Positions 7,428 through 15,583 of a stretch of 64,000 nucleotides of DNA are shown piece by piece. The position numbers were made by a program, and so were the translations under genes. The first letter of the stretch is position 1. The number at the start of each line of letters is the position of its first letter. This DNA comes from Bdellovibrio reynosensis (GTDB lineage Bacteria > Bdellovibrionota > Bdellovibrionia > Bdellovibrionales > Bdellovibrionaceae). The stretch lies in assembly GCF_022814725.1 (NCBI RefSeq), contig NZ_CP093442.1:1860001-1924000 (forward strand), in the 5' to 3' direction. The notes under the pieces were generated by a model. That model ran no database searches, had not been told where the DNA came from, and worked only from the letters and a program-made list of their open reading frames with translations.

Positions 7428-8627
7428 ATGATTTGGCCTTTTATTTTTATCTCTTACGCAAGCTTGTTTACTCTCGGCATTTCTGACAACGTCCGTGGGC
7501 CATTATTTCCTGAAATCATGAAACAGTTCGGCGTTTCTGACTCTATGGGCGCTTTAATGTATGTATTAAGCAGTATTGCGGGGCTGGCTGCAAGTTATGC
7601 CGCCCATTCGCTATTACGCCGTTTTGATCGCCTGCAAATCATCCAAGGTGCAGCACTAACCATGGTTATCGCTTTAGTGGGACTTGCCGCCTCCCCGGCG
7701 TTCTCTGTGTTTTTGTTATTCAGTTTTCTGATGGGTGTTTCACTTGGGATCTTGGGTCTGATTCCAAACATCCTGGTTCCGATTGGCTCAACCCCACAAC
7801 GTAAACAAAGAATGCTTTCGGGTCTGCATACAATGTATGGGCTTTCTAGCTTACTAGCTCCGTTATTAACCGCGGCTATTGCTGCCGCGACGGGGAATTG
7901 GCGCTGGGTGTTTGCGACGGTGGCGCTGGCTCCGGTGGCTTTGCTAATTTATTCTTTTCATCCCACACACAGATCCCTTCATAAAAAAGTGGAAATATCG
8001 TCAGAAGATCGTAGGGCGAATAAAAAGAAAAACTTAGCTCCGCAGATCTTCCTAGCGATTATGTTAAGCTCCGCTGTGGCTGCAGAGATTATGATCTCTT
8101 CCCGTCTTGCCCTTTACATGCAAAGAGCATTGAATTTTTCGACAGAGGCTGCCAGCCTTTACGTCACCTACTTCTTCGTATCTATGATGGTGGGCCGTTT
8201 ACTGTTTTCATTTTTGCATTTCAGAAGATCGCCGCAGTATTTGCTTTCAACTTCTTTAATATTAACAGGACTAAGTATTGCCGCGGGTATCTACGTGAAT
8301 CCGCTTTTCTTAGCTCTGACGGGATTCACAATTGCTCCTTTTTATCCAATGTCGATTGCTTGGGTGTCCTCGGAATTTCCCACCGACCTAGACGCTGCGG
8401 TGTCGTATATGAAAGCATCGGATTCTATCGTCTTAATTCTTATGCACTTAGCTATTGGTAAACTGACCGATGTCTTTAGCATTCAAACGGCGATACTAGC
8501 GGGTATCTCATTTGTGGTGATTTCTTTGCTTATGGTTGTCAGCTATAAACCGCTCTTCCATAAGCCGACTCGCCCCGAGGTGAAACCAAAGGCACCTCAT
8601 ATTAGTCCCACGGTCTTCCATCCCTAA
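7428..8627 (+). CDS. MFS transporter
   Basis: A 399-residue inner-membrane protein with about twelve hydrophobic segments, the layout of the major facilitator superfamily. The first segment (about residues 3-20) is followed by a charged loop and a short LLRRFDR stretch at the position of family motif A. A central basic loop (about 185-205, rich in Lys and Arg) separates the two six-helix halves. The tail is Pro/Lys-rich. Substrate and direction cannot be read. The ATG has GAGGAC just upstream. The radical SAM gene begins 25 nt downstream on the same strand, so it may share the transcript. Confidence 0.85.
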   Translation: MIWPFIFISYASLFTLGISDNVRGPLFPEIMKQFGVSDSMGALMYVLSSIAGLAASYAAHSLLRRFDRLQIIQGAALTMVIALVGLAASPAFSVFLLFSFLMGVSLGILGLIPNILVPIGSTPQRKQRMLSGLHTMYGLSSLLAPLLTAAIAAATGNWRWVFATVALAPVALLIYSFHPTHRSLHKKVEISSEDRRANKKKNLAPQIFLAIMLSSAVAAEIMISSRLALYMQRALNFSTEAASLYVTYFFVSMMVGRLLFSFLHFRRSPQYLLSTSLILTGLSIAAGIYVNPLFLALTGFTIAPFYPMSIAWVSSEFPTDLDAAVSYMKASDSIVLILMHLAIGKLTDVFSIQTAILAGISFVVISLLMVVSYKPLFHKPTRPEVKPKAPHISPTVFHP

Positions 8628-8652: not shown

Positions 8653-9726
8653 ATGGCGCGTGAATTTCGAAAAGACATTCGCGGTCGTGGAGCTAGTAGC
8701 AACGTCACCAATCGATACGACACCTTAAAATACGAAGCTACCGAAGAAGACTTCGACAATTATGAAACCGAAAAAAGTTTGCTGAAAACGGAAGTTCTGA
8801 AGGATTCGTCTCGCTCCATTATCACGAAAAACAACAGTCCTGATATCGGCTTTGAGTTCTCGGTAAATCCCTACCGAGGCTGTGAGCACGGTTGCGCCTA
8901 TTGTTATGCACGTCCTAGCCACGAGTACTTGGGGTTTTCTCCAGGATTGGATTTTGAATCTAAAATCGTGATCAAAGAAACAGCGCCTGAACTTTTGCGT
9001 GAGGCTTTAATGAAGCCATCGTGGAAACCCGCTGTGATTATGATGAGTGGGATTACGGACTGCTATCAACCCTTAGAGCGAAAATACGAACTTACTCGCG
9101 GGTGCTTGCGCGTTTTGGCAGATTTTAAAAATCCTGTTTCGATGATCACCAAAAATGCGTTGATTACTAGGGACATCGATATCTTCAAAGAGATGATCGA
9201 ATACGATGGAATTAAAATCTATATTTCCGTAACAACTTTAGATCCTGAACTTGGAAAAGTTTTAGAACCACGTACCTCAAGACCCCAAGCTCGTTTGCAA
9301 GCGATTGAAGCTTTGGCAAATGCCGGCGTTCCTGTTGGTGTTAACGTGGCTCCGTGTATTCCCGGCCTGAACGATCACGAATTGCCACAGATCTTAAAAG
9401 CAGCCAGTGAAGCGGGCGCTACTTCGGCGGGATATACACCTTTGCGATTACCTTCTTCTGTTTTACCTATTTTTGAAGAATGGCTAGAGGTGCATCAGCC
9501 TTTAAAGAAAGAAAAGGTTTTAAACTCGGTGCGTGATATTCGGGGCGGCAAATTGAATGACGCGCAGTTTGGATCGCGTATGCGCGGGGAAGGGCCTAGG
9601 GCTGACCAAATGGCGCAGATGTTCGCTCTTTATACTCGCAAATATAATTTAAATATGAAACATTTCAATCTTTCCACCGCCCACTTTCAAAGACCCGGCG
9701 ATCAATTGAAATTTAATATAGAGTAA
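8653..9726 (+). CDS. PA0069/Rv2578c-family radical SAM protein
   Basis: A 357-residue radical SAM protein distantly related to spore photoproduct lyases. The [4Fe-4S] motif CEHGCAYC supplies C77, C81 and C84, followed by YARPSHEYLGF, typical of the family. The C-terminal part contains MRGEGPRADQM. The reaction of this family is unknown. Homologues are often called DNA repair photolyase-like, which rests on similarity only. It is the first gene of a trio with the helicase-nuclease and GIY-YIG genes: its stop is 1 nt before the next start. This supports a nucleic-acid role but does not prove it. Confidence 0.85.
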   Translation: MAREFRKDIRGRGASSNVTNRYDTLKYEATEEDFDNYETEKSLLKTEVLKDSSRSIITKNNSPDIGFEFSVNPYRGCEHGCAYCYARPSHEYLGFSPGLDFESKIVIKETAPELLREALMKPSWKPAVIMMSGITDCYQPLERKYELTRGCLRVLADFKNPVSMITKNALITRDIDIFKEMIEYDGIKIYISVTTLDPELGKVLEPRTSRPQARLQAIEALANAGVPVGVNVAPCIPGLNDHELPQILKAASEAGATSAGYTPLRLPSSVLPIFEEWLEVHQPLKKEKVLNSVRDIRGGKLNDAQFGSRMRGEGPRADQMAQMFALYTRKYNLNMKHFNLSTAHFQRPGDQLKFNIE

Positions 9727-9727
9727 T

Positions 9728-12091
9728 ATGCGTAAAGTGCACGTTGATGTAAAACAATTCTCTGTCCCTGTTCCCAGAGTAGGAAGTATTGAAACCCACT
9801 CTGGTTACGGTGCTTCGCCCGTCAGCGGGCAAGAGATACATGTGCGTGTACAACGTGAACGTATGCGCGAATATGAAGGCTATGAAGCAGAAAAGCGCTT
9901 AGCCTATATTTTTGAAAAAGGCCCTTATCAGTTTAGCATTTCTGGTCGCGCCGATGGTTGTGTCGAAGACCCCGCATTGATTGAAGAAATCAAATCCGCA
10001 TTTGATGTGGAAGAGCTTTACGCCAAACTTTTAAAAGAACCCAACCATCCTTATGTGTGGCAGTTACGCACCTATGGATATTTCTTTTTTAAGGAAACTG
10101 GAAAAGTTCCCCGCCTAAATCTGCATCTTGTTTCTTCACGCAACTTTCGTAGCAAAGACATTAATATAAATTTAGATATTGAAGGTTATGAAGCTTGGCT
10201 AGAACTGCGCCTTGAAGAGTTGGTTGCAGAAACAAAGATCAAAGAAAAACTTTTTGATCGTCGTCAAAAAATTTCTAAAGAAATGACTTTCCCTTTCGCA
10301 GCTCCCCGCCGCGGCCAAAAGGAATTGGTTGAGACAGTTGCTGAAAACTTTGAAGAAGGCCGTGCTTTACTTGTTCAAGCCCCAACAGGCTTGGGGAAAA
10401 CCGCAGGAATTTTATACCCAGCTTTAAAAGAATCTTTAGCTCGCGGGCAAAAGGTTGTTTACGTCACTCCGAAAAATTCCCAGCACCAAGTTGCCGAAGA
10501 AGCTGTGGAAAAAATCCAAGAGCAAGGATGCAAAGTTCGCAGTCTGACCATCACAGCAAAAAGCAAGATGTGCCTAAAAGCTGAGCCTTTGTGCAATCCC
10601 AAGTACTGTGAATTCGCTAAAGACTATTATAAAAAAATCTATGATAACGACTTGGTTAACAAGCTTGCAAAACTGCGTGGAATCACCAGCAGCAAACTTA
10701 AAACCATGGGTGAAGAATACGAAGTCTGCCCTTTTGAACTTTCGGTGGAAGCTATTGAAAGAGCCGATGTTGTCATAGGCGATTATAATTACGTGTTTGC
10801 TCCACGTGGTTTGTTAGGTCGACTTTCAGCGCCGCTTTTAGAAAATGAAAAAGCAAATCTTGTGATTGATGAAGCCCATAACCTGCCTTCAAGATCCCAG
10901 GACTATTTTTCGCCTAGCCTTTCTTTACAACAACTAGGTCAACTTGAACGTGACTTCATCAGGGTTCCAGCGACATTTTCTATTCAAGGTAATGCTTTAG
11001 TTCATCGTGCTCGACGTCTCATTCAATCCTATGGCAAGGATGGAATCAATAGGCGCGTTGAAATTGATTTAGATCCATTCATGGAACTAGATAAGGATAT
11101 TCGCGACCTGACGATGGAGTACCTGGATTCAGATGTAGAAATCATGCCGCAAGACCCGGTTCTGCGCTTCACCAATATGTGGTCCGATTTCGTGAACTCA
11201 ATCACTTTAAGTGGCGAAGAGTTCTTCCAGACTTATCAAAAAAACAACTTCACCGAAATGCTGAAGATCACCTGCTGTGATGCCTCGGAACATCTAAAAC
11301 TTGCTTATAAGGAATTTAAAAACGTTGTGGCTTTTTCTGCCACTTTAAAGCCTTTTAATTATTATCAGGAACTTTTAGGTCTTTCGAATTTAGACACCAA
11401 ACAAGTTGAATTTCAGTCTCCGTTTGAAAAACACAACCGCAAGCTATTAATCATTCCGCAGATCTCAACCAAGTTCACTGACCGCCAAATGAACGCCGGT
11501 AAGATCGCTGACACGATTAATAAAATTACTCAAGTGAAACCTGGGAACTACATTGCCTTATTTCCAAGTTTTGAATTTATGCGCTTGGTGGAAAGCAAGG
11601 TTCGCCTCACTGGTTACAAAGTGCTGGTGCAAGAACGAGAAATGAAACAGCAACAGACCCAAAGCTATTTAGAAGAAATGAAACTTGCGAACAATCCGAC
11701 ATTGTTGTTGGGGGTGCAAGGCGGAGTTTTCTCTGAAGGTGTCGACTTCCCTGGTGACATGTTAATCGGTGCATTTGTCGTGGGACCGGCTCTTCCTAAC
11801 TTTGACTTCGAACGTGAACAGATCCGCAACTATTATGAAAACCGTTATGGAAAAGACAAAGCCTTTAATTATGCCTATGTCTACCCTGCCATGGCGAAAG
11901 CCATTCAATCTGCGGGCCGAGTGATTCGCTCTGAATCAGACCGCGGTGTAATTGTGATGCTTGATTCACGCTTTTTACAAAATGCGTACGCTGAAACAAT
12001 GCCCGACGGATGGTATGATCAATCCCCACAGGAACTCGTTTCTAGCCAAATTCTTGCTGACGTTAAAAACTTTTGGGAAAACACGCCATGA
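9728..12091 (+). CDS. PD-(D/E)XK nuclease fused to XPD/DinG-type iron-sulfur helicase
   Basis: A 787-residue two-part protein. Residues about 50-150 look like a RecB/Cas4-type PD-(D/E)XK nuclease: GRADG with D76, EIKS with E87 and K89, then WQLRTYGYF with Q112 and Y116. Residues about 190-787 form a superfamily 2 DEAD_2 helicase. It has Walker A APTGLGKT (218-225), DEAH (381-384), and C282, C289, C294 and C334 spaced like the XPD/DinG iron-sulfur cluster. The C-terminal half ends with the ATPase motif QSAGRVIRSESDRG. It probably unwinds and cuts DNA or a DNA-RNA hybrid. It sits between the radical SAM gene (1-nt gap) and the nuclease fusion (ATGA overlap). Confidence 0.88.
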   Translation: MRKVHVDVKQFSVPVPRVGSIETHSGYGASPVSGQEIHVRVQRERMREYEGYEAEKRLAYIFEKGPYQFSISGRADGCVEDPALIEEIKSAFDVEELYAKLLKEPNHPYVWQLRTYGYFFFKETGKVPRLNLHLVSSRNFRSKDININLDIEGYEAWLELRLEELVAETKIKEKLFDRRQKISKEMTFPFAAPRRGQKELVETVAENFEEGRALLVQAPTGLGKTAGILYPALKESLARGQKVVYVTPKNSQHQVAEEAVEKIQEQGCKVRSLTITAKSKMCLKAEPLCNPKYCEFAKDYYKKIYDNDLVNKLAKLRGITSSKLKTMGEEYEVCPFELSVEAIERADVVIGDYNYVFAPRGLLGRLSAPLLENEKANLVIDEAHNLPSRSQDYFSPSLSLQQLGQLERDFIRVPATFSIQGNALVHRARRLIQSYGKDGINRRVEIDLDPFMELDKDIRDLTMEYLDSDVEIMPQDPVLRFTNMWSDFVNSITLSGEEFFQTYQKNNFTEMLKITCCDASEHLKLAYKEFKNVVAFSATLKPFNYYQELLGLSNLDTKQVEFQSPFEKHNRKLLIIPQISTKFTDRQMNAGKIADTINKITQVKPGNYIALFPSFEFMRLVESKVRLTGYKVLVQEREMKQQQTQSYLEEMKLANNPTLLLGVQGGVFSEGVDFPGDMLIGAFVVGPALPNFDFEREQIRNYYENRYGKDKAFNYAYVYPAMAKAIQSAGRVIRSESDRGVIVMLDSRFLQNAYAETMPDGWYDQSPQELVSSQILADVKNFWENTP

Positions 12092-13656
12092 GCCTGTTAA
12101 AGCATCCCGTTCTTTTTTTAGATTTGCAGACCACAGGGGCAAAACCTGAGTCAGGAAATATTTTAGAGATCGCCTGGGGTGTTTTATCTTCAGAACAAGT
12201 AACAAGTTATTTGGTTGAACAACCCGACGGCGAAGAGATTCCGCGCCGTATTCAGTTTATTACGGGCATTTACCAAAAACACATGAATGAGGCGAAACCT
12301 TTCACTCAAGTTTTTGCTGAGCTTAAAGATTTCATTAAAGAACACTGCCTTGAAAATCCCGTGGCGGTCATTCATTTCGCTCAGTTTGAAAAACCGTTCT
12401 TAGCTGATGCCTACGAGAAACTTACAGAAGAACTCCCTTTTCAAATTCTTTGCACCCACGAAATCGCAAAAAGACTTTTACCAAACTTACCGACCCGAGG
12501 AATTAAAGGACTGGCCGGTTACTTTGGCTGCCCTTCAGGGGAATTAAAACGCGCTGCGAATCACGTGCAAGCCACCCAAGTGATCTGGCAAGGTCTTACG
12601 GGTTTGCTAGCAGAAAAAAACATTCTTTCTTTAAGCGATCTTAACACTTGGCTTAGCGAAACTCCAAAAACAGCCCGGGTCAAATACGAATACCCACTTC
12701 CTAAAGAAAAGCGTTTAAGCCTTCCGAAGGAACCTGGGGTTTACCGCATGCTAAGCCGCTGGGGCGAAGTCCTTTACGTTGGTAAAGCCACTTCACTTCA
12801 TGACCGTGTGAATAGTTATTTCCGCGGGCAAAAGAATCGCGATAGTCGAAAGCTTGAAATGCTGACCCAAGTTTGGGATTTGCAAGTCACGGTTGTTGGC
12901 AGTCCTTTAGAATCAGCACTTTTAGAGACCGACGAGATCAAACGCTTAAATCCTCCGTACAATGTCAGCTTAAAAGTCGGCAGAAGGGAACTTGCCTTCT
13001 TTAATGAAGATTTTACTTCACTAAGTCCTGTGGCTGATGAAATTCATCAAATAGGTCCGTTTTCAAACGCCATGGCCTTGGATTCAGTTTTGCGTTTAAG
13101 CCAATCCGTCAAAGAACAATCCTTTGATGAAAACATGTTTTACGAACCGATTGATGCTGAACTGCTTGAAGCCGGTTTTGATTTGTTTTGTGATCGCCAT
13201 GGTTTCAGCAAAGAAGATTTTCGTTCGGTCCGCTCTGTTCTTGCCGTAGGCCTTAACTGGTATCGCAAGTTAGTCGAAGAAGCTGAGGAAGAAGAAATCA
13301 TTGAAGAGCCTGAAGAAGCCGCAGCTGACACCGAAACGGAAGATGAAGAAGAAGTGGAAATCGAGCTCACAGCGGAAGACTTAGCCGACAAGTATGAACG
13401 TCATTTCATTCGCTCCGCTGCCACCTATTTACGTACAAAAAAGCTGACTCAGCTATTAAATGCGCGCATTAAAATCGCAGAAAAAATGGAATTAAAGATT
13501 CAAGGCGGCCAAGTGCTGGCGCCACAAAGCCAGCATGTAAAACAAAGATCTTCATGGCAAAATCTTGGTATCGACACCTATGATCGTATGACCGTGCTTT
13601 ATACAGAACTGAACAAACTGCGTTCCAAAAACGAAACTTTAGAAATTACTTTTTAA
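12088..13656 (+). CDS. Degenerate DnaQ-like domain fused to GIY-YIG (UvrC-type) nuclease
   Basis: A 522-residue protein. Residues about 7-175 have the DnaQ/DEDDh exonuclease fold signature, but three of four metal-binding acids are replaced. ExoI reads LDLQTTG (D12, Q14 instead of Glu), ExoII has E101 where Asp is expected (HFAQFEKPFL), and ExoIII has H159 with Q164 instead of Asp. Residues about 212-300 are a GIY-YIG domain with intact key residues: PGVY (Y219), LYVGK (Y230), R240, and the LLETDEIK segment supplying the Glu. A very acidic linker follows (about 395-430). I start at the ATG overlapping the helicase stop (ATGA), because the in-frame TTG at 12073 lies inside the helicase. Related DnaQ-UvrC fusions are known, and their function is poorly understood. 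Confidence 0.85.
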   Translation: MSLLKHPVLFLDLQTTGAKPESGNILEIAWGVLSSEQVTSYLVEQPDGEEIPRRIQFITGIYQKHMNEAKPFTQVFAELKDFIKEHCLENPVAVIHFAQFEKPFLADAYEKLTEELPFQILCTHEIAKRLLPNLPTRGIKGLAGYFGCPSGELKRAANHVQATQVIWQGLTGLLAEKNILSLSDLNTWLSETPKTARVKYEYPLPKEKRLSLPKEPGVYRMLSRWGEVLYVGKATSLHDRVNSYFRGQKNRDSRKLEMLTQVWDLQVTVVGSPLESALLETDEIKRLNPPYNVSLKVGRRELAFFNEDFTSLSPVADEIHQIGPFSNAMALDSVLRLSQSVKEQSFDENMFYEPIDAELLEAGFDLFCDRHGFSKEDFRSVRSVLAVGLNWYRKLVEEAEEEEIIEEPEEAAADTETEDEEEVEIELTAEDLADKYERHFIRSAATYLRTKKLTQLLNARIKIAEKMELKIQGGQVLAPQSQHVKQRSSWQNLGIDTYDRMTVLYTELNKLRSKNETLEITF

Positions 13657-14026
13657 AAACAGAATATTTTAGCTCGACAGCTTCGCCTAGCCAAAGTGCC
13701 GCTTGAGTGTGATCGTAGTGATCATCCCCTGTCAGCTCATGTACTAAAACAGATAGATCCCCACGAGAATGCATAAGCCATAAAACGACTTCAGAAAAAA
13801 GTTCTTTTGGGAAATTAATTTCAAACATGGGAACAGGATGAGGACCAATGGCTTCAGGAATCATTTCCCCAACGAAGACTTTTAGACCCGCAAATTGTTC
13901 GATGGCGGCTTTACGAAAGGTTTCGGCTTGCTGTCTTTGTTCAGCGGAAAAATAGATATGCGCATCGAATTCCCGAGGGAAGCCAGCAGGCAAAAGTTGT
14001 GAATTTACTTTGTAGGGACGTTCCAT
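13646..14026 (-). CDS. DOPA 4,5-dioxygenase-family protein
   Basis: A 126-residue cytoplasmic protein matching the DOPA 4,5-dioxygenase family: FDAHIYF near the N-terminus, GPHPVPMFEI in the middle, and VLVHELTGDDHYDHTQAALWLGE near the end. Conserved histidines in these motifs would bind the iron of an extradiol ring-cleaving enzyme. Bacterial members usually have no known substrate. Its 3' end overlaps the GIY-YIG gene on the other strand by 11 nt, so there is no room for a terminator between them. Confidence 0.8.
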   Translation of the reverse strand: MERPYKVNSQLLPAGFPREFDAHIYFSAEQRQQAETFRKAAIEQFAGLKVFVGEMIPEAIGPHPVPMFEINFPKELFSEVVLWLMHSRGDLSVLVHELTGDDHYDHTQAALWLGEAVELKYSVFKK

Positions 14027-14035
14027 GGCCAGGAT

Positions 14036-15583
14036 TTATAACATAGTCTCTGGAACAAACAATGATAGAAATTCTGACTGAAAGCTTTGCCACCAGCGGG
14101 CGTCGGGTTCTTCGCTAAAGACGATACTCTTTCCACTTTCGACCGTGTTCCATTGCACATCGTTTTTATCATTAAGACTTACCCGATAAGATAGTTCTGG
14201 TAAGAATCTTAAGGCATTATTTAAAAACTGATCAGCCAGCTCCGGGCTTTCAAACAAAACCCCAAACTCAGTATTAAGCTCAATAGATCGGGGATCTAAG
14301 TTCAGTGAACCAACAAACATCGCACGACGATCAAAGATAAAAACTTTGCCGTGCAGACCCAACCTTGCTCCTGAGGTTCCCACCAAACGAAATTTACGAG
14401 CCTTCGGAGTCACGCGCGGTTTAAGTTCATAAAGATCGACACCCGCTCTGATAAGTTGTTTGCGATATTTCTTATACCCAGCAAAAGTTAAAGGGACGTC
14501 ATTTGAACCTAAAGAGTTCGTAAAAACGGAAACCTGCACACCTTTGGCTTCTTTGTTTTTAAAATATTCAACACCCTTTGCACCCGGGATAAAGTAAGGT
14601 GAAACGATGAAGAGCTCTTTTGTCGGAGGTGAAATTGGCATCGCCTCCATATATTTTTTTAAATTTCTTCCGTCGTAGGTATCTTGATTTTCCTGGTCAA
14701 TTTTTTCCGGCGAATCATAGTAGATCTGCGCCCTGCCCCAATAAGTTTTTAGTCGTCCCGCGCGAAAGTCCGCATCTAAACTAGAGCTTGCCAATTGCTT
14801 TGCATAGGATGACTTTTGCAGATCATTAGAAGCGGACGCAAAACTTTCACGAAGGTTTTTATAATCTTCATCGGTGATTTCACGCTGATTTAAAACAGAA
14901 ATGGGCACTGAAAAACCGCTATTCCAATATTCATCAAAGGCATCAGAACACTGACCCACGATAGGACCAAAAGCCCACACGTCGTAATCACCGAAATTTT
15001 CTTCACCGTGGGCCGTAAAGTACTGCTCACCAATATTTCTTCCACCCGTGATGGCCGTTTGATTATCGGCGATCATAAGTTTGCCGTGCATGCGGCGATG
15101 GGCTTGGTGAAACCGGACAATTTCAAATAAGCGTATTTTGCGAAAAGAAAATGGATTAAACATGCGCACTTCAATTTGCGGATGACGATCTAAAGCAAGC
15201 AGCGCATCTTCGTAAGGACCTAAATTTAAATCATCCAGCAGAATCCTTACGCGTACCCCGCGATCAGCCGCCTGGATTACCTCATGTCCCATGGCTTTAC
15301 CGATTCTGTCGTCTGCCCAAAGATAGTATTGTAAATCCAAAGTCTTCTGGGCCATTTGAATGGAAACGATTCGCGCCTTATATGCATCTGTTCCAGCCTC
15401 AAGCGGAACAAATCCAGAATTGCCTTTATGGGCTTGAACGGTGGGACTTAGCAGCTTTCCCAGAACGGTGTCAGAGGTTTCTTTAATGGCGTAGGCCTTT
15501 GGTGAAATGTAGGTTTTAGGAACACCATTGCAACCCACAAACGAAAGGCAAAGTATGAAGAAACCTGACATCACCAACTTCAT
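14036..15583 (-). CDS. Phospholipase D-family lipoprotein (cardiolipin synthase-like)
   Basis: A 515-residue envelope protein with two HKD motifs, the hallmark of phospholipase D/cardiolipin synthase enzymes. The first is HGKLMIAD (H166, K168, D173), followed by GGRNIG. The second is HGKVFIFD (H411, K413, D418), followed by GSLNLDPRS. The N-terminus is a lipoprotein signal with lipobox FVGC (C18), so it is probably anchored in the membrane facing the periplasm. The layout resembles ClsC/YmdC-type proteins. It could make or break phospholipids, either its own or, in a predator, those of prey; the second is inference. The ATG lacks a strong Shine-Dalgarno site. Confidence 0.85.
   Translation of the reverse strand: MKLVMSGFFILCLSFVGCNGVPKTYISPKAYAIKETSDTVLGKLLSPTVQAHKGNSGFVPLEAGTDAYKARIVSIQMAQKTLDLQYYLWADDRIGKAMGHEVIQAADRGVRVRILLDDLNLGPYEDALLALDRHPQIEVRMFNPFSFRKIRLFEIVRFHQAHRRMHGKLMIADNQTAITGGRNIGEQYFTAHGEENFGDYDVWAFGPIVGQCSDAFDEYWNSGFSVPISVLNQREITDEDYKNLRESFASASNDLQKSSYAKQLASSSLDADFRAGRLKTYWGRAQIYYDSPEKIDQENQDTYDGRNLKKYMEAMPISPPTKELFIVSPYFIPGAKGVEYFKNKEAKGVQVSVFTNSLGSNDVPLTFAGYKKYRKQLIRAGVDLYELKPRVTPKARKFRLVGTSGARLGLHGKVFIFDRRAMFVGSLNLDPRSIELNTEFGVLFESPELADQFLNNALRFLPELSYRVSLNDKNDVQWNTVESGKSIVFSEEPDARWWQSFQSEFLSLFVPETML

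Follow-up and report, generated by a model that had tools for sequence, protein, structure and literature searches.

EndoDinG and an adjoining pseudo-exonuclease/GIY-YIG protein are a conserved gene pair in Bdellovibrio, with a putative role in DNA-damage repair

The window analyzed here is a 64,000-nucleotide stretch of the Bdellovibrio reynosensis genome (contig NZ_CP093442.1, positions 1,860,001 to 1,924,000, of assembly GCF_022814725.1); all coordinates below are counted from its first nucleotide. Three genes run in tandem on its plus strand, encoding a radical S-adenosylmethionine (SAM) protein (8653-9726), a helicase (9728-12091), and a DEDDh/GIY-YIG protein (12088-13656). The stop codon of the radical SAM gene (TAA, 9724-9726) is separated by 1 nucleotide from the ATG of the helicase gene at 9728, and the stop codon of the latter (TGA, 12089-12091) forms an ATGA overlap with the ATG of the third gene at 12088. 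An alternative TTG start at 12073 is listed for the third gene; its homologues start at the position of the ATG. A first-pass annotation of this DNA had described the gap and the overlap, and had assigned the products to a PA0069-type radical SAM protein, a PD-(D/E)XK/Fe-S helicase, and a DnaQ-like/GIY-YIG protein. The stop and start coordinates bear out the former, and the family and structure matches the latter. The features of the locus are as follows.

8653-9726, plus strand: radical SAM protein of the PA0069 family, 357 amino acids, best read as an accessory upstream gene (NF033668, 483 bits against a cut-off of 360; Radical_SAM, 2e-20)
8881-8904, plus strand: CxxxCxxC motif of the radical SAM protein (Cys 77, 81, and 84, invariant in 12 adjacent copies)
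9728-12091, plus strand: EndoDinG, 787 amino acids, a PD-(D/E)XK nuclease joined to an XPD/DinG-type iron-sulfur (FeS) helicase (full-length match to PDB chain 9kqh_A)
9728-10177, plus strand: PD-(D/E)XK (RecB/Cas4-like) domain of EndoDinG, residues 1-150, with H38, E55, D76, E87xK89, and Q112xxxY116 (invariant in 28 sequences)
10376-10402, plus strand: Walker A motif QAPTGLGKT, residues 217-225 (core G221, G223, K224, and T225 invariant)
10571-10729, plus strand: FeS-cluster cysteine region, C282, C289, C294, and C334 (invariant in 28 sequences)
10868-10879, plus strand: DEAH box, residues 381-384 (D381, E382, and H384 invariant, A383 nearly so)
12088-13656, plus strand: pseudo-DEDDh/GIY-YIG fusion protein, 522 amino acids (Pfam/NCBIfam matches RNase_T and GIY-YIG; ATGA overlap with the EndoDinG gene)
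12088-12657, plus strand: predicted pseudo-exonuclease domain, residues 1-190, with D12, Q14, E101, K154, and H159 (DnaQ/PolC fold; residue table)
12703-12978, plus strand: UvrC-type GIY-YIG endonuclease domain, residues 206-297, with Y219, Y230, K233, R240, E280, and N292 (match to 1yd6; invariant in 31 of 31 sequences)
13069-13653, plus strand: C-terminal region of the third protein, residues 328-522, of which 399-425 form a low-confidence acidic linker (AlphaFold2 model; no Pfam or NCBIfam match)

The product of the second gene is an EndoDinG, a member of a published DinG/XPD subgroup, so the family itself is already known. A 2025 review names the architecture, chooses the B. bacteriovorus HD100 protein to represent it, and gives endonuclease activity of the HD100 protein as unpublished data (PMC11981726). 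The protein encoded in the window carries the N-terminal PD-(D/E)XK domain with its H, E, D, E, and K residues and the CCCC FeS motif within a DinG/XPD core. Its Pfam matches are Helicase_C_2 and DEAD_2, and residues 32-762 match chain 9kqh_A, Finegoldia magna DinG with single-stranded DNA and ADPNP, at 5e-91 (phmmer). The same structure is the best Foldseek hit of the AlphaFold2 model (mean pLDDT, 89.9; TMq, 0.84), followed by archaeal XPD; no paper for structure 9KQH was found in our literature search. We compared 28 EndoDinG sequences from Bdellovibrionota, Thermodesulfobacteriota, Nitrospirota, Elusimicrobiota, Cyanobacteriota, Acidobacteriota, Bacillota, and one Lokiarchaeon, across which the nuclease residues of the RecB/Cas4 type, the Walker A core, the four FeS cysteines, and the DEAH box are conserved as listed above. 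The Finegoldia chain in 9kqh has Ala at the position of the otherwise invariant D76, and is perhaps an engineered inactive mutant.

The third gene encodes a protein with two nuclease folds, recognized by the Pfam families RNase_T and GIY-YIG. The N-terminal domain has the DnaQ/PolC exonuclease fold, aligning with the polymerase chain 9qpc_A with a VIA-align Z score of 22.2 (root mean square deviation of 1.9 over 184 residues) and with E. coli epsilon (1j53) with a Z score of 18.7, and the second domain matches the UvrC GIY-YIG structure 1yd6 (phmmer, 2e-15). The two active sites have fared differently. In all 31 members of a family set that takes in Obscuribacterales and a copy from a reversed-order locus, the DEDDh quintet D-E-D-H-D has become D12, Q14, E101, K154, and H, Q, or Y at 159, whereas the six GIY-YIG residues are unchanged throughout. 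The full quintet is kept in all three DEDD-GIY-YIG proteins of Bdellovibrionota that lack EndoDinG (G078, G154, and G159). From these residues, we infer that exonuclease activity has been lost in the EndoDinG-associated family. The first-pass annotation had called the exonuclease degenerate, and the comparison strengthens that description, as four of five catalytic positions are substituted, in the same kind of way, across 31 homologues. Against the NCBIfam PRK07883 models the protein scores 155 bits across both nuclease domains, short of the cut-off of 495. With regard to the C4 cysteine cluster and the Cho-CTD or UvrB-binding C terminus of Cho+Exo proteins, 27 sequences of the third protein share no invariant Cys downstream of the GIY-YIG domain, and that region matches no family. 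The matches in the fold search fall mainly on the exonuclease domain.

The conserved unit at this locus is the pair formed by the second and third genes, not the three-gene run. Of 60 related genomes sampled, 31 carry EndoDinG, not counting a 67-residue fragment in G059, and 26 carry the pseudo-exonuclease protein, which in every case adjoins EndoDinG. Within Bdellovibrio, both genes are present and adjacent in 22 of 24 genomes, and in nearly all of these pairs the start of the third gene overlaps the EndoDinG stop by 4 to 14 nucleotides. Across the genus, the pair has at least five different sets of flanking genes, such as RlmN/MFS in the window and ATP-synthase genes in five genomes (G005, G011, G012, G019, and G021). 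It is also present in Bacteriovorax (L088), in genome G088, and in Obscuribacterales/Melainabacteria (L082, L085, L086, L087, L093, and L099), while genome G102 has the two genes in reversed order (L165:1418-5636). Adjacency by chance, which the first-pass annotation had offered as the outcome that would overturn its proposal, does not apply to the helicase and GIY-YIG genes, which adjoin in 26 of the 60 related genomes and in another phylum. In a second sample of 144 genomes across the phylum, all 18 with the pseudo-exonuclease also carry EndoDinG, 17 of them adjacently; counted by genus, the five genera with the former all fall inside the 19 of 93 with the latter (chance, 2e-4). Protein distances for the two families are closely correlated (r = 0.97 for 30 pairs, with none of 2,000 permutations as high; r = 0.94 for the 11 pairs outside the genus); this correlation largely reflects shared ancestry and shows co-inheritance, not interaction. 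In the literature that we searched, we found no account of the two genes as a pair, of the conserved pseudo-active site, or of the switch of partner set out below.

Two observations concern individual loci. In four of the Obscuribacterales loci (L085:12459-16418, L087, L093, and L099), the pair is followed by conserved same-strand genes, some with a TPR-repeat protein. The 625-amino-acid neighbor in G102 was at first taken for UvrC from its GIY-YIG match; a family scan identified it as the DEDD-GIY-YIG protein, with the Q substitution retained.

In four genomes (G028, G029, G032, and G047), EndoDinG has a different companion. The gene directly upstream encodes a metallo-beta-lactamase/beta-CASP exonuclease of TIGR04122, the SNM1/Pso2-like "ligase-associated DNA damage response exonuclease," and the pseudo-exonuclease is absent; the match is above the cut-off in three of the four, with a short open reading frame in G028 falling below it. 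The arrangement recurs in further Bdellovibrionota and in one Elusimicrobiota genome. On a tree of 115 EndoDinG sequences built by a quick method (34 rows with the pseudo-exonuclease partner and 17 with the SNM1-like partner, including two identical pairs among the latter), the two partner labels separate with a single change (SH-aLRT, 100), where 14.5 changes are expected for shuffled labels. No locus with both partners was found. The EndoDinG of genome G132 belongs to the SNM1-partner clade and has no SNM1-like neighbor. Neither partner is adjacent to the Firmicutes EndoDinG homologues, and we therefore do not extend the pairing to that group.

A further lead for a link to DNA damage comes from a metagenome-assembled genome (MAG) of the Desulfuromonadaceae, in which lexA (TIGR00498, above the cut-off), an 82-amino-acid open reading frame, dinB, and EndoDinG follow one another on one strand with gaps of at most about 15 nucleotides (L069:13-4507), as if in an operon. 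Control of the window operon by the SOS response through the reported LexA box was considered and rejected: the motif TTACN3GTAA (PMC8565304) has 47 sites in the window genome, none of them close to the operon. The genes upstream of the Pelotalea EndoDinG, which by their sizes had been guessed to be a TamB/imu-type mutagenesis cassette, proved to be TamA/TamB. Elsewhere, the upstream neighbors of EndoDinG are conserved within pairs of genomes, acidobacterial or Lokiarchaeal (385 to 391 amino acids in L094 and L096, 311 to 321 in L098 and L101, and 242 to 243 in L103 and L106), and a scan of one neighbor per pair gave no NCBIfam match.

We consider it probable, on balance, that the second and third genes constitute a two-protein DNA-damage repair module. 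The link to damage is drawn from the SNM1/Pso2-like partner in the sister clade and from the lexA-dinB-EndoDinG arrangement in one desulfuromonad; adjacency in varied contexts, co-inheritance, the tables of catalytic residues, and the endonuclease activity reported for the HD100 protein also speak for the module. EndoDinG would load on single-stranded DNA beside a lesion or stalled fork and move or unwind in the 5'-to-3' direction, a polarity carried over from XPD/DinG helicases, while its PD-(D/E)XK domain would cut or trim the exposed strand. The dead DEDDh domain of the third protein may dock on a DNA end or a protein and so position the GIY-YIG nuclease, which would incise on the 3' side of the damage, as UvrC and Cho do; the side, again, is carried over from the family. 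In the sister clade, the SNM1-like exonuclease would fill the partner role, and the radical SAM protein would be an optional accessory. The first-pass annotation had suggested nucleic-acid repair for all three genes, and the suggestion stands for the second and third, given their coupling, the SNM1-like replacement, and the lexA-dinB-EndoDinG arrangement, but not as a three-gene system. Three observations weigh against the repair module: all three genes are missing from two Bdellovibrio genomes (G004 and G013), G132 encodes both proteins at unlinked loci (L166 and L170), and the lexA-dinB-EndoDinG order is known from a single MAG contig.

The same domains could serve replication rather than repair, and we regard this as a tentative and rather unlikely alternative. 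Here, EndoDinG would act like Dna2: its targets for unwinding and trimming would be 5' flaps or reversed forks, and branched DNA would be cut by the GIY-YIG protein, with no lesion excised. The combination of a PD-(D/E)XK domain with a 5'-to-3' FeS helicase does resemble Dna2, as has also been argued for EndoDinG (PMC11981726), and an SNM1-like 5' exonuclease would fit as a partner. However, the GIY-YIG domain is of the UvrC type by sequence, not of the Slx1 type, and one lineage has EndoDinG linked to dinB and lexA, which speaks for damage over routine replication. A bolder reading, which we hold to be doubtful, is an XPD-type excision pathway independent of UvrAB, in which EndoDinG would verify or open the lesion, its PD-(D/E)XK domain would cut on one side and the UvrC-type GIY-YIG domain, placed by the pseudo-exonuclease partner, on the other, and the dead DEDDh domain would read the lesion or the 3' end.

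It is unlikely that all three genes serve one pathway in which the radical SAM protein reverses a lesion or modifies nucleic acid that the other two proteins process. The protein exceeds the cut-off of its PA0069 family model (rSAM_PA0069) and has five invariant cysteines, including the CxxxCxxC motif, in the 12 copies adjacent to EndoDinG. These copies stand directly upstream of EndoDinG, in tandem, near-coupled order and in two genomic contexts, and their distances follow those of EndoDinG (r = 0.94 over 12 copies). At the genus level, the two co-occur among the relatives with p = 0.0005 and across the phylum sample with p = 0.014, values uncorrected for phylogeny or genome size. In G043, which has no EndoDinG, a PA0069-type gene immediately follows lexA (L148:2909-4740), and GTACGGT-like direct repeats precede lexA. 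Against such a pathway, the 12 genomes with the adjacent gene are only half of the 24 Bdellovibrio; it lies elsewhere in two others (G002 and G023) and is absent from 10, several having lost it from the cassette while keeping the second and third genes. At two loci (L002 and L003), the MFS gene directly abuts EndoDinG, which is consistent with loss of the radical SAM gene. Outside the family, the gene occurs in only 1 of 14 EndoDinG genera and is not associated with the helicase. The gene is best read as an optional accessory, and we reject the three-gene unit as a conserved entity, since the pair persists without it; the co-occurrence that the first-pass annotation had asked for elsewhere exists for the second and third genes, but its view of the three as one unit does not hold generally. 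Its description of the radical SAM family as photolyase-like traces only to spore photoproduct lyase models matched far below their cut-offs (Pfam E = 0.0025; NCBIfam E = 7e-5). Our literature search returned nothing on PA0069 together with radical SAM, and for Rv2578c only two mentions in passing.

We find it improbable that the pair is an antiphage or antiplasmid system in which a helicase-nuclease and a GIY-YIG protein destroy invading DNA, as the first-pass annotation had also proposed. Helicase-nuclease pairs are common among defense systems, and the PADLOC model PDLC01439 (typeIV_DinG, of type IV CRISPR) matches the EndoDinG at 3.6e-120. This match is a naming trap and no evidence of CRISPR, although it may lead annotation pipelines to mislabel EndoDinG as a helicase of type IV CRISPR; we reject assignment to type IV CRISPR/CasDinG on the architecture and on the lack of CRISPR-like repeats in positions 1-30000. 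No direct repeats of at least 22 nucleotides lie within 120 nucleotides of each other in positions 1-30000 of the window, and the neighbors there include no clear defense genes, the DrmC matches belonging to a phospholipase-D-type protein (14036-15583). In the relatives, the neighbors are RlmN, MFS, HldE-type, and ATP-synthase genes, and the distribution in the genus is near universal, not patchy. Predation-specific degradation of prey DNA, likewise suggested earlier, would suit a gene universal or nearly so in Bdellovibrio and is very improbable, as neither the Obscuribacterales, which have the pair, nor the Geobacteraceae and Bacillota, which have EndoDinG, are known as predators. Nor did a secretion signal stand out in the sequences, although no dedicated test for one was run.

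At the edges of the run in the window, an MFS gene (7428-8627) ends 25 nucleotides before the radical SAM gene, and a convergent gene of the DOPA-dioxygenase family (13646-14026) overlaps the end of the third gene by 11 nucleotides.

Although EndoDinG has been named and is reported to be an endonuclease, no pathway has been assigned to it, and the partner described here gives it a concrete functional hypothesis. That hypothesis is built on a partner that has stayed adjacent in two phyla and combines a UvrC-type incision domain with an exonuclease site replaced alike everywhere. The exchange for an SNM1-like protein and the lexA-dinB-EndoDinG arrangement make damage repair the first candidate function, and HD100, the source of the representative EndoDinG, is a laboratory strain.

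Among known systems, the closest kin of the second gene are the EndoDinG proteins of HD100 and Finegoldia magna (9kqh), with which it shares the PD-(D/E)XK N terminus, the CCCC FeS motif, and the DinG/XPD motor. The EndoDinG section of the review gives no partner gene, SNM1-like alternative, or lexA-dinB linkage (PMC11981726). Fusions of DEDD and GIY-YIG domains are also already known, as Cho+Exo and Cho-like+Exo (PMC1564403). The third protein has the same domain order as these proteins of the mycobacterial type (PRK07883), an N-terminal DnaQ fold followed by a UvrC-type GIY-YIG domain, but it scores far below their cut-off, has four of the five DEDDh residues replaced and an unmatched C terminus, and is tied to EndoDinG. 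In the model put forward for the mycobacterial Cho+Exo, incision by the GIY-YIG domain is followed by exonuclease digestion through the lesion (PMC1564403). With its catalytic residues replaced, the DEDDh domain of the third protein could not take that second step; the EndoDinG partner supplies another nuclease. The exonuclease that accompanies EndoDinG in the sister clade, TIGR04122, is that of the ligase-associated DNA damage response cluster. There, it occurs alongside a ligase and a helicase of the Lhr-like type, without EndoDinG, and it is named for the ligase association, not for EndoDinG.

As a working analogue, we consider MrfAB of Bacillus subtilis, in which a helicase and a DEDDh exonuclease carry out UvrABC-independent mitomycin repair (PMC11194089), likewise a two-gene system of a helicase and a DEDDh-fold partner. 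MrfA belongs to another helicase family, whereas EndoDinG is of the DinG/XPD type, and MrfB is an active metal-dependent exonuclease without a GIY-YIG domain, whereas the corresponding site of the third protein is replaced. Nucleotide excision repair by archaeal or eukaryotic XPD and by UvrBC offers the remaining likeness, an XPD-type motor in the former and a UvrC-type incision domain in the latter. To our knowledge, no single operon combining the two has been known. Should the pair prove to be an excision system of XPD plus GIY-YIG, a single bacterial operon would bring together two traditions of nucleotide excision repair, that of XPD and that of UvrC.

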